From Clostridia bacterium (GTDB lineage: Bacteria; Bacillota; Clostridia; Christensenellales; Aristaeellaceae): a stretch of DNA of 34,626 nucleotides. Within the stretch, counting starts at the first letter, position 1. Every line of letters begins with the position of its first letter. The notes under the pieces were generated by a model. The model saw only the letters and a list, made by a program, of their open reading frames with translations, did not search any database and was not told where the DNA came from. The stretch spans positions 1-34,626 of the forward strand of contig JAFSGG010000081.1 in NCBI GenBank assembly GCA_017434775.1. The letters are read 5' to 3'. Shown here piece by piece: positions 30,371 through 33,668 of the stretch. Made by a program: the position numbers and the translations under genes.

Positions 30371-30403
30371 GGGAACGCTTTATTGCGCATCCCTGTTTTT
30401 TTG
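30371..30403. terminator. Terminator between HAD gene and cwlD
   Basis: ACAGGGA and TCCCTGT pair around a loop, followed by seven T on the plus strand. The hairpin overlaps the last codons and stop of cwlD on the minus strand. Confidence 0.8.
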
Positions 30404-31096
30404 TTGCAACCGGATATATTCGCAAACACCGGTGCAAACGGCTTCTGCCAACCGTTTCTGATAATCAGCATCCATCAGCCATTTTGCCTCCTGCGGATTG
30501 GAAATGAAACCGCATTCAATCAGCACGGAAGGAATGGGCAGCGACAGCATGTAATAATCTCCGGCCATGGCACTGCGCACCCGAGTGGGTTGCAAACCGC
30601 CAATCAGTGCCGCCTGCAGGCAGCCTGCCAACAAGCGGCTGTCTGCATTGTTTTTTCGGTAAAACACCTGTGGGCCGGATTCTACTGCATCATGATACTG
30701 ATTCATATGGACGGAGAGCAGCAGGTCCGCATCGCCATCCTTTGCCATCTGCAGTCGTGCATCCAGATCGGGCCGTTTCCTGTCTGCGAAAGCCTTGTCC
30801 TCCATCCGGGTCATGATCACCTGTGCCCCCTGTGCTTCCAACGCGCTTTGAATCTGCAGGGCCATCCGCAAATTATACTCCTTTTCCCACAAACCACCGT
30901 TTATAGCCCGGGCGCCGCCGTCATATCCTCCATGCCCGGCATCAACCAAAATGCACAGGCCTTCCAGCGCACCGCTTTCCTCCGTGATCACCGATTCTGG
31001 CTGCCCCTCTCTTTGGTTTTTGTCCTGAACAATGCCAAAGAGGCCAATTACAATTACACCACAGAGCATAGTCCAAAAAAACACATTCCGCTTCAC
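30380..31096 (-). CDS. cwlD: CwlD-type N-acetylmuramoyl-L-alanine amidase (spore cortex)
   Basis: A 238-residue amidase_3 enzyme, the same length class as Bacillus CwlD, which removes side peptides so that muramic lactam can form in spore cortex. An N-terminal membrane/signal segment (about 5-23) is followed by VDAGHGGYDGGA with the zinc His, GLWEKEYNLRMALQ with the zinc Glu, LLLSVHMNQ with the second His, and IECGFISN with the catalytic Glu. The start is a GTG at 31096, with GGAGGGG six bases upstream. This gene is the best evidence in the window for an endospore former. Confidence 0.9.
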   Translation of the reverse strand: MKRNVFFWTMLCGVIVIGLFGIVQDKNQREGQPESVITEESGALEGLCILVDAGHGGYDGGARAINGGLWEKEYNLRMALQIQSALEAQGAQVIMTRMEDKAFADRKRPDLDARLQMAKDGDADLLLSVHMNQYHDAVESGPQVFYRKNNADSRLLAGCLQAALIGGLQPTRVRSAMAGDYYMLSLPIPSVLIECGFISNPQEAKWLMDADYQKRLAEAVCTGVCEYIRLQQKNRDAQ

Positions 31097-31114
31097 ACCA
31101 TCCCCTCCGGTTTT

Positions 31115-31141
31115 ACCCTATGCGCATCGGTTTTTGTTTAT
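31115..31141 (-). promoter_or_regulatory. Possible sigma-E-like sporulation promoter of cwlD
   Basis: Minus strand ATA (31141-31139), 16 bases, then CATAGGGT (31122-31115), which resembles the ATA-16-CATAnnnT pattern of sigma-E promoters. The implied leader is very short, about 12 bases, so the call is weak. Confidence 0.25.
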
Positions 31142-31192
31142 CCTGTCAAGTAACAAATTTCTTAAATCTTTTTTCATTTTTCCTTTTCGATG

Positions 31193-31489
31193 TTATCCAC
31201 AAAAAAATCTTAACATTTTCCGGCATTATACAGCACATACACAGGTTATTTGTGGTTTTTGACGGTTTTCCGGCTTTTTTTCACTGTATATACAGCATAT
31301 ACCCTCTGATTTATGCAAAACATGTTTTTCCCCATTATCCACAGAGTTATCCACAGTTGTCCACCAAAAAAGAGGCTGAAAACCCTTATTTCACCGTTGG
31401 ACTGTGGATAACTTTTACTTTTTTCACGTTATCCACAGTGGAAAACACGGGGTTGTTCCCGAAAATTATCCACAGTCGGCGGTGGATAA
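31193..31489. other. DnaA-box cluster, candidate replication origin
   Basis: Six perfect TTATCCACA boxes occur: plus strand at 31193, 31335, 31347, 31429 and 31466, and minus strand at 31403-31411. A seventh with one mismatch (TTATCCACC) is on the minus strand at 31481-31489, and a weaker TTGTCCACC at 31357. The surroundings are AT-rich compared with flanking genes, and no gene lies between 31097 and 31640. Density, perfect matches and AT-rich flanks are those of a bacterial oriC. dnaA and dnaN are not in the window. Confidence 0.75.
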
Positions 31490-31615
31490 AAATAGCTTCA
31501 AAAGATTAGAGGAAAGCAACAGTTTTGTAACATTTTGCTCTTGACACTCCTTTTTATTCCATATTCTGGCACAAATCAGCCGATGCATGAACCTTTCATT
31601 TTCATCTGAGTGCAA

Positions 31616-31643
31616 CAAAAAAGCAGCTCATGACAGCTGCTTA
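31616..31643 (-). terminator. Terminator of the uvrA-truA-radical SAM operon
   Basis: Minus strand AAGCAGCT and AGCTGCTT around GTCATG, followed by a T run. It overlaps the stop codon of the radical SAM gene. Confidence 0.9.
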
Positions 31644-32498
31644 AAAGAGTGAAATCTGCTGTTTGTTTTCGAAGGCATGCATATAACGGAAAATGGCGTC
31701 GTTATCGTGCATCATGCCGGTTTCTTCACAGATGCTGTGAAACAGCTGCATCAGCTTGGCCGAACAGGGGCTGGGCACCTCATAGGCATTCCCGTAGCGG
31801 CGAACATATTCCGCCTTCAGCCCGGGAAAATACCGGTCCAGTTGCTGATAATAATGCTCCCGGTTCCCGTTGCGCAGCGTCAGCCCCATCCCGAAATTGA
31901 TAACGCCCTTCACCTGAGCCTCAGCACACATCCCCAGGATGCCGATGATGTTTTCTTCCGTATCGTTGATGAAAGGTAGTATGGGGCTGAGCCACACCAC
32001 CGTGGGAATCCCGGCATCCCGCAGCTTTTTCAGTGCTTCAAAGCGTTCACTGGTTACGCTGACGTTTTGTTCTACCATCCGGCAGAGATCGTCGTCCCAA
32101 GTAGTGAGGGTCATCTGCACCACGGCTTTTGTTTTCTCGTTCATCCGCTTCAACAAATCCATGTCGCGCAACACCAGCGTGGACTTGGTCTGCAGCGCGA
32201 TGCCGAACCCGTACCGGTCGATCAATTCCAGCACGCTGCGCATGATGCCCAGTTCCTTTTCCAGCGGGATATAGGGATCCCCCATAGCCCCGGTACCGAT
32301 CATGCAGGGCTTGCGCTTGCGTTTCAGCGCATCTTCCAGCAGGGCCAGGGTATTTTCCTTTACTTCGATGTCTTCAAAATCATGCTGCATCTGATAGCAA
32401 TCGCTTCTGGCATCACAGTAAATGCAGCCGTGCTGACAACCCCGGTAAATATTCATGGACGTGGGCGTCAGAATGGATTTTGCCTGCACAAAATGCAT
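31641..32498 (-). CDS. Radical SAM protein, SPL (spore photoproduct lyase)-like family
   Basis: A 285-residue radical SAM enzyme. The cluster motif is YRGCQHGCIYCDARSD (C-x3-C-x2-C) near residue 20, and GTGAMGDPYIPLEKEL and LQTKSTLVLRD are blocks of the SplB-like/COG1533 family. It is shorter than true spore photoproduct lyase (about 340 residues), so repair of spore photoproduct is not implied; the reaction is unknown. ATG at 32498 lies three bases after the truA stop, with AAGGA inside the truA end. Last gene of a three-gene minus-strand run. Confidence 0.85.
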   Translation of the reverse strand: MHFVQAKSILTPTSMNIYRGCQHGCIYCDARSDCYQMQHDFEDIEVKENTLALLEDALKRKRKPCMIGTGAMGDPYIPLEKELGIMRSVLELIDRYGFGIALQTKSTLVLRDMDLLKRMNEKTKAVVQMTLTTWDDDLCRMVEQNVSVTSERFEALKKLRDAGIPTVVWLSPILPFINDTEENIIGILGMCAEAQVKGVINFGMGLTLRNGNREHYYQQLDRYFPGLKAEYVRRYGNAYEVPSPCSAKLMQLFHSICEETGMMHDNDAIFRYMHAFENKQQISLF

Positions 32499-32501
32499 GG
32501 T

Positions 32502-33668
32502 TTATTCCTTATCCAGGGCATATTCCACCCTTGTCAGTTCCAGGCCGGCAGCCGGAGCCGTAATGCCCAGTTCCAGCCGGTTGCCCGTTTCAATGGCCCG
32601 TGTGATGCATCCTTCATCCAGCTTGCCCTGGCCGATGTAAATCAGCGCCCCGGCAATGATGCGCACCATATTGTACAAAAACGCATTACCGTGAATTTTC
32701 AGAATTACCATATCCCCCTGCCGTTCCACCGACACCTGATCGATGGTGCGCACGGTGGTTTTGGCACTGCCGCCAGCCGCCGCAAAGGCCGCAAAATCAT
32801 GGGTGCCCAGCAGCCGCTGCGCTGCCCGGTGCATGACCTTTTCATCCAGCTGCACCGGCACATGAGCCGTCATATGGCGATAAATGGCGCTGGCATGGGG
32901 GGCGTTATGGATGCGATAGGTGTACCATTTTCCTTCCGCCTGATACCGGGCATGGAAGGTGGGCGACACCTGCCGTGCTTCCCACACCCGGATATCCGGG
33001 GGCAAAAAGCGGTTCAGCACGAAAGGATATTTTTCCGGCGGAATGGTGGCATCCGTGTCAAAATGCGCCCGCTGCCCCAGGGCATGCACGCCGGCATCGG
33101 TGCGGCTGGCGCCGGTCACACGGGTAAATTTGCCCACTGCCTTTTCCAGGGCTTCTTCCAGGGCCTGCTGCACGCTGGGGGCATTGTCCTGATACTGCCA
33201 GCCGGAATAATGCGTGCCGTCATAGCTGACGGTGAGCAGAATGCGCCGCCAGGGGCGTTCCCTGTCGATGCGTTCCATTTCGGCAAACAAAACAGGGGTA
33301 ATATCGGGATAAGTCAGGTTTTCCGGCAGGGTGTCAAAAAGCTGCACTTCCGCCATTTCAAAGTCCGGAAGCGAATCCAGCCGGGCAATATCCGCCCGGA
33401 AAGCCACGCCGCCAAGCCCTGTGCCCGTATGCACATAGTCAAACAGGGGCGTCAGTTCATACACCCCGGCGCCGCTTTCCTCCACCAGTTCCCGCCGTGC
33501 CGCCAGCAGGGGATTCTCCCCTGCCTCAATGTGGCCTCCCTGGGTTTCCCAGGTATCTCTGTCTTTATGCCGGCTGAGCAGGATTTTTCCATCCATTTTG
33601 GACAATACCACCACATAGGTATATTGTTCCAAAGAACCCAGTGGCAAAATTTTCGTCATCATTGGCAT
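32502..33668 (-). CDS. truA: Fusion protein: Nudix hydrolase + tRNA pseudouridine synthase A
   Basis: One continuous 388-residue frame. Residues 1 to about 136 form a Nudix domain with a full box, GGHIEAGENPLLAARREL then VEESG. From about 139 (RRILLTVSYDGTHYSGWQYQ) to the end is a complete TruA, which makes pseudouridine at positions 38-40 of tRNA anticodon arms; the catalytic aspartate is D191 in GASRTDAGVHALGQ. TruA is normally a stand-alone protein of about 250 residues. Start codons at 33668, 33662 and 33659 are all in frame; 33668 is taken, but GAGG spacing would suit 33662. It is three bases after uvrA. Confidence 0.9.
   Translation of the reverse strand: MPMMTKILPLGSLEQYTYVVVLSKMDGKILLSRHKDRDTWETQGGHIEAGENPLLAARRELVEESGAGVYELTPLFDYVHTGTGLGGVAFRADIARLDSLPDFEMAEVQLFDTLPENLTYPDITPVLFAEMERIDRERPWRRILLTVSYDGTHYSGWQYQDNAPSVQQALEEALEKAVGKFTRVTGASRTDAGVHALGQRAHFDTDATIPPEKYPFVLNRFLPPDIRVWEARQVSPTFHARYQAEGKWYTYRIHNAPHASAIYRHMTAHVPVQLDEKVMHRAAQRLLGTHDFAAFAAAGGSAKTTVRTIDQVSVERQGDMVILKIHGNAFLYNMVRIIAGALIYIGQGKLDEGCITRAIETGNRLELGITAPAAGLELTRVEYALDKE

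Follow-up and report, generated by a model that had tools for sequence, protein, structure and literature searches.

Based on box counts, comparisons across related genomes and strand-corrected skew analyses, we propose that the DnaA-box array ahead of the cwlD-like gene is best read as an extra-origin DnaA-box cluster. It appears to lie upstream of a sigma-E-like cwlD promoter and may serve control of cwlD, DnaA availability, or both. Very probably the array is not oriC, and replication starts elsewhere, beside dnaN. The window, i.e. the whole stretch of DNA analysed (34,626 nucleotides), represents the entire contig C71 of a 2.26-Mb genome that is divided into 124 contigs and 77% complete.

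The array spans 31193-31489, where six perfect TTATCCACA boxes and one near-match, TTATCCACC, are packed into 297 bases, a recount that agrees with the first-pass annotation (Table 1). Additional two-mismatch boxes are located at 31311, 31326, 31357 and 31437. The surrounding gap (31097-31640), previously described as AT-rich, gene-free and some 540 bases long, indeed measures 544 bases and has a G+C content of 38%, compared to 54% in the window. With up to one mismatch allowed, the window contains 20 boxes as compared to 5.8 expected, and seven of the 20 fall in the 297 bases of the array. The complete genome listing comprises 53 perfect boxes, versus 13 matches of a reversed control pattern, and the array is the densest perfect-box cluster, with at most two perfect boxes per 300 bases elsewhere; it also ranks first in each of the four genomes with a complete box listing (G000, G001, G024 and G008). 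A rough Poisson estimate from the density of the other 47 boxes yields approximately 2e-12 chance six-box clusters per genome, in line with the earlier remark that perfect boxes should be rare by chance in so short a stretch. The fragmented, incomplete assembly might raise suspicion of an artefact. However, that the array is an artefact or a chance cluster is hardly credible given this expectation, and is refuted by its conservation across the genus, where it is present in all 27 assemblies with cwlD.

Table 1. Features of the array-bearing gap and its flanks (positions in the window).
Feature	Position	Strand	Remarks
CwlD-like N-acetylmuramoyl-L-alanine amidase gene (Amidase_3)	30380..31096	-	constant neighbour of the array
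Conserved sigma-E-like element ahead of cwlD	31115..31149	-	TTGACA, then GGATAAA-N14-CATAGGGT
Outlying perfect box TTATCCACA	31193..31201	+	142 bp ahead of the box pair
Tandem perfect-box pair TTATCCACAgagTTATCCACA	31335..31355	+	12 bp apart (starts 31335, 31347)
Inverted perfect box TTATCCACA	31403..31411	-	56 bp beyond the pair's second box
Perfect box TTATCCACA	31429..31437	+	
Perfect box TTATCCACA	31466..31474	+	
One-mismatch box TTATCCACC	31481..31489	-	
TTGACA on the far side	31541..31546	+	possibly a rightward-promoter remnant; TTGACA in this region in 20/27 genus genomes
Terminator-like hairpin closing the radical SAM gene set	31621..31642	-	1 found, 1.1 expected by chance
Radical SAM protein gene	31641..32498	-	adjoins the gap on its far side here; most genus contigs examined have another gene in this place

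A cwlD match was obtained in 27 of the 29 genus genomes searched (this genome counted), and in all 27 an array is located upstream of it, with 3-6 perfect boxes and 5-11 at up to one mismatch. The core geometry is recognisable in 25 of these arrays, being absent from L032 (G022) and L043 (G007). Within the 25, the 12-bp tandem pair is found in 22, as is an outlying box 142-164 bp ahead of the pair. The distance from the pair to the inverted box, sought by script within 40-62 bp of the pair, is 56 bp in 19 arrays, 54-55 bp in four and 46-47 bp in two, and the next direct box follows the inverted one after 26-28 bp (19 arrays) or 18-19 bp (six arrays). The 47-bp spacer displays a mean pairwise identity of 43% (19 sequences), versus 25% when shuffled. 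Hence, the box distance is held more than the spacer sequence, as expected of a protein complex.

The association extends beyond the genus. In a survey of 90 genomes of the family, 27 matching genomes lay outside the genus, of which 24 loci were read, and six more matches lay inside it. At 19 of the 24 loci the 600 bp upstream of cwlD contain at least three boxes with up to one mismatch, and box density upstream of cwlD is 7.2 per kb, versus 0.22 in the remainder of the loci; the other five loci have fewer than three boxes, four of them none. In other families, at least three boxes precede cwlD at 3 of 7 loci, and to these is added G031, also of another family, whose cwlD array has five perfect boxes. 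A strict array pattern yielded two matches in 396 genomes of the order, both within the genus, in a sample that included three genus members only, among them G001, which was not matched. Arrays were located by searching with cwlD, so that arrays at other loci would escape detection, and the array-cwlD linkage may reflect common descent.

The first-pass annotation had favoured a candidate or relocated oriC and named a secondary DnaA-binding locus as the alternative. It is the alternative that is supported, with the origin signature found at dnaN and an array without trios. Upstream of dnaN on contig C64 (approximately 997-1027), CTA repeats flank a TA-rich stretch, with the box-like TTTCCACAG alongside, a pattern resembling the basal unwinding system of B. 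subtilis and C. difficile oriC2 as outlined in published work (PMC6669920, PMC7561715). Like Firmicutes origins with such a system (B. subtilis incC, C. difficile oriC2), the array is a cluster of DnaA boxes that includes a close tandem pair; unlike them, it lacks a strict DnaA-trio repeat; the trios of this lineage are at dnaN. A dnaN match was obtained in 21 genus genomes, and 16 of these loci were read; 13 contain a 9-base trio repeat and three a 6-base repeat only, and neither the 9-base repeat nor even the 6-mer CTACTA is present in any of the 27 cwlD arrays. The combination of trios with an AT-rich unwinding element by the boxes, as in Firmicutes-type origins, is thus missing at the arrays. 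A looser trio pattern was replaced by the strict repeat because it discriminated poorly, with one array, L032, showing five in a row (a length attained in 1% of shuffles) and runs of 2 to 5 at dnaN loci. In G031, CTACTA is frequent, with 16 copies in 20 kb and one of them inside the array, and the origin was therefore placed by skew in that genome. CTACTA also occurs in nine of 31 further cwlD loci (24 of the family, 7 of other families), a count covering the whole locus irrespective of placement relative to the boxes.

The genes for the initiator and the clamp have parted in this lineage. The only strong dnaA match of the genome (C120:429-1787; two weak ones lie elsewhere) encodes a DnaA with N-terminal, AAA+ and box-binding domains all present and is preceded by two perfect boxes. 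With dnaN in C64:1-1100 and the array on C71, the array has no direct dnaA or dnaN linkage of the Firmicutes oriC type in this fragmented genome. C64 is 9,687 bases long, with aldo/keto reductase-like, argC-like and argJ-like genes upstream of dnaN (named by eye), and none of its frames was recognised as dnaA. The two genes reside on different contigs in all 20 genus genomes matching both; where they share a contig, they are approximately 47 kb apart in G059 (same family; dnaN by eye) and 39 kb in G031, and matches to both lie within about 1.5 kb in G025, G026 and G038, which belong to other families. The separation in the genus, G059 and G031 implies that the lineage has lost the adjacency of dnaA and dnaN, and the origin signature has remained with dnaN after the parting. 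In the open-access literature, we found nothing on a Christensenellales replication origin with dnaA. We also note a repeat of approximately 260 bases, 75% identical, between C120:1-382 (contig start after dnaA) and C64:1738-2099 (upstream of dnaN).

Raw skew around the array was set aside because gene orientation and replication are mixed in it, and third-codon-position skew, split by gene strand, was used as the measure. On C64, the GC skew changes sign, from -0.063 across the 1 kb available toward dnaN to +0.050 across 8.6 kb in the other direction. In the near-closed G059, raw skew along contig C3 (3.97 Mb) is positive in all 20-kb samples at 0.21-2.12 Mb and negative in every sample at 2.31 Mb and onward as well as within 1-20 kb; the strand-corrected skew is about zero at 3.57 Mb, and a single 10-kb bin just short of the contig end has a positive value. 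Over a stretch joined to run from -40 kb to 200 kb, the cumulative skew reaches its minimum at 63.3 kb, beside dnaN and recF (by eye) and approximately 1.4 kb from a trio-like motif. The cwlD boxes of G059, at 2.834 Mb, are more than 1 Mb from this minimum even if C3 is circular, and the skew on their two sides is -0.093 and -0.082 raw, or -0.134 and -0.114 strand-corrected. The same contig harbours a further cluster at 191277-191420, in which seven near-consensus boxes, one of them perfect, occur within 400 bases, some 127 kb from the skew minimum. In G031, the cumulative minimum (15,181 in the 90 kb fetched) coincides with the dnaN upstream region and its trio-like repeats, with the cwlD array 10 kb off. 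Hence, neither genome has its skew minimum at the array.

An origin signal elsewhere, with dnaN-linked boxes, had been named beforehand as the observation that would speak against an origin at the array. It is largely borne out, by dnaN-linked boxes with trios on C64 and by skew minima beside dnaN in G059 and G031. Within the genus, where all genomes seen are fragmented, the case is weaker, and the pooled skew at the array is itself origin-like. Over 15 genus contigs, the strand-corrected skew within 20 kb of the array is -0.027 (95% interval -0.054 to 0.005) toward cwlD and +0.079 (0.056 to 0.099) in the opposite direction. This change, such as an origin would produce, is larger than that at dnaN, -0.018 (-0.050 to 0.019) and +0.031 (0.003 to 0.058); the dnaN set comprises eight of eleven genus contigs, G007, G023 and G001 having been dropped as no dnaN frame was found by script. 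Individually, six genomes (G001, G014, G002, G019, G022, G018) show significantly positive values on the far side of the array and two (G021, G017) significantly negative ones, and the window alone among the genus genomes is significantly negative on the cwlD side. Significant opposite signs on both sides were detected in no genus genome, at the array or at dnaN, many array contigs having one short side; at dnaN, significance on both sides was reached in none. The sign changes at dnaN in G020, G021, G003 and G059, and does not in G012 and G006. In G021, it shifts from -0.048 (interval spanning zero) to +0.148 at dnaN, and at the array it is the same on both sides, -0.073 over 12 kb (interval spanning zero) and -0.045 over 75 kb. 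Since G021 and G059 keep one sign across the array, the pooled pattern is not proof of an origin. The array of G466 carries little weight because the first values, +0.058 and +0.067, shifted to +0.089 and +0.006 (raw +0.036 and +0.042) when the rest of the contig was added.

It is very improbable that the array constitutes the origin itself or, in a bipartite arrangement, the half rich in boxes, set apart from an unwinding half at dnaN. Such an arrangement could account for the number of boxes and their fixed geometry, for the pooled skew change, for the G031 array being just 10 kb from the dnaN origin, and for G012, where dnaA and the array share a contig at a distance of approximately 31 kb. 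Nevertheless, it conflicts with the absence of strict trios from every array, with the skew signs of G059 and G021, and with the own genome, in which trios, TA-rich element and skew change are all at dnaN. While the array is very unlikely to be an unwinding site, it may be close to the origin in some species.

The cwlD-like protein belongs to Amidase_3, and its best NCBIfam match is CwlD at 168.5 bits, under the curated cut-off of 221.55. Of the flanking genes as first named, cwlD is thus upheld as to domain and best match, but not at the level of the cut-off. Most long operons on both flanks had been described as transcribed toward the cluster, which is true for the radical SAM-truA-uvrA set but not for cwlD itself, which reads away from the gap. 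In the interval between array and cwlD, TTGACA is present in all 27 genus genomes, and CATA follows 21-22 nt beyond it in 26 of 27. Sigma-E promoters have the arrangement GCATATT-N14-CATA. Judged by the published -35 ATA motif and the -10 consensus, the element ahead of cwlD is sigma-E-like and could be a sigma-E promoter; the strict sigma-E pattern is found at 5 of 27 genus loci, as compared to at most one in shuffles, and a scan for sigma-70 promoters was uninformative (2 matches versus 1.7 expected). In B. subtilis and C. difficile, cwlD is likewise an amidase gene and under sigma-E control (PMC517825, PMC3789822). The array is situated about 44-340 bp upstream of the promoter-like element, placing the boxes within the promoter region of a gene, as in DnaA-regulated promoters of the sda type. 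No published link between cwlD and DnaA boxes was found in the open-access literature searched. Alignment of the genus sequences reveals a near-palindrome, AAAAgT-TgAACTTTT, directly adjoining the TTGACA ahead of cwlD (within 31097-31192 of the window), possibly the site of another regulator.

On the opposite flank, the first gene varies among the genus contigs while cwlD remains, which identifies cwlD, the gene with which the arrays were searched, as their constant partner. A divergent gene for a protein of approximately 178 amino acids comes first in 8 of 15 contigs, and in a ninth (G021) behind one intervening frame. For the G001 copy (C43:6351-6887, L137), neither Pfam nor NCBIfam gave a significant match, and dusB comes after it. 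The radical SAM gene takes this position in the window, G024, G008 and G015, a pyrG-like gene in G017 and a sugar-kinase-like gene in G013 (the latter two named by eye); no gene was assigned for G012 and G018. The hairpin closing the radical SAM gene set is weak evidence, as its occurrence matches chance expectation (Table 1). Next to the radical SAM gene, the window encodes a TruA with an N-terminal NUDIX domain as a single 388-residue protein (32502-33668), and a 386-residue frame with a similar N-terminus is present in G024 (by eye).

DnaA bound at the array might control the divergent far-side gene, with dusB next to it where checked, instead of cwlD, the site in the window being a remnant. 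The rightward TTGACA of most genus genomes and the prevalence of the 178-residue gene as nearest neighbour are compatible with this, but the window has kept six perfect boxes despite its different neighbouring gene set, and the array is also kept in G017 and G013 beside yet other neighbours, making such a role very improbable. Considerably more plausible, if still short of probable, is that the array serves purely as a sink for DnaA or a timing site, comparable to the B. subtilis clusters or E. coli datA and keeping bound DnaA off oriC, and that its proximity to cwlD is an accident of descent. TTWTNCACA occurs six times exactly, and 13 times with up to one mismatch, in the array gap (544 bases), versus two and nine times in the region upstream of dnaN (560 bases), so that near-consensus boxes outnumber those at dnaN. 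In B. subtilis, joint removal of six such clusters leads to early initiation, yet the same review calls their role in initiation not significant (PMC5295017). Furthermore, a sink has no need of fixed spacing, which is nonetheless kept while the spacers diverge, and the array remains by cwlD though the far-side gene differs.

Among known systems, the array shares with the B. subtilis clusters (sda-yqeG, ywlC, ywcI-vpr, gcp-ydiF, trmE and yydA) an intergenic position, many near-consensus boxes in a short region, and a location away from the unwinding site of oriC. It differs in its locus, in being one dominant cluster rather than one of six, and in being a predicted DnaA-binding site. Several of the B. 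subtilis clusters are in promoter regions, and one activates the sporulation inhibitor gene sda (PMC4447404, PMC5295017); the main text of PMC4447404, a study of DnaA binding in B. subtilis, makes no mention of cwlD. The datA and DARS loci of E. coli are also non-coding, with several boxes and away from oriC, but these act with IHF and Fis on the nucleotide state of DnaA.

The likeliest function, which we hold with middling confidence from the conserved sequence pattern, is that of a DnaA complex controlling the cwlD region. The seven boxes are very probably occupied by DnaA in a cooperative manner, which would give a complex of fixed geometry approximately 44-340 bp upstream of the sigma-E-like promoter. 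Acting on the control region, this complex would make expression of the putative spore-cortex amidase follow DnaA and thus the state of replication, and the same boxes may keep DnaA off the weaker-boxed oriC at dnaN, with a possible influence on the timing of initiation. A more tentative and on balance doubtful reading is that DnaA in this lineage directly gates a sigma-E spore-cortex gene, the complex upstream of cwlD tying cortex modification to the state of replication of the mother-cell chromosome. If true, this gating would parallel, at a late stage, the DnaA-sda link by which B. subtilis guards its entry into sporulation.

In conclusion, a genome's densest DnaA-box cluster is not necessarily its origin, and box counting could mislead, the risk of misplacement being greatest in fragmented assemblies where dnaA has left dnaN. 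If the link to cwlD is functional, DnaA would be tied to a late sporulation gene in uncultured Clostridia.
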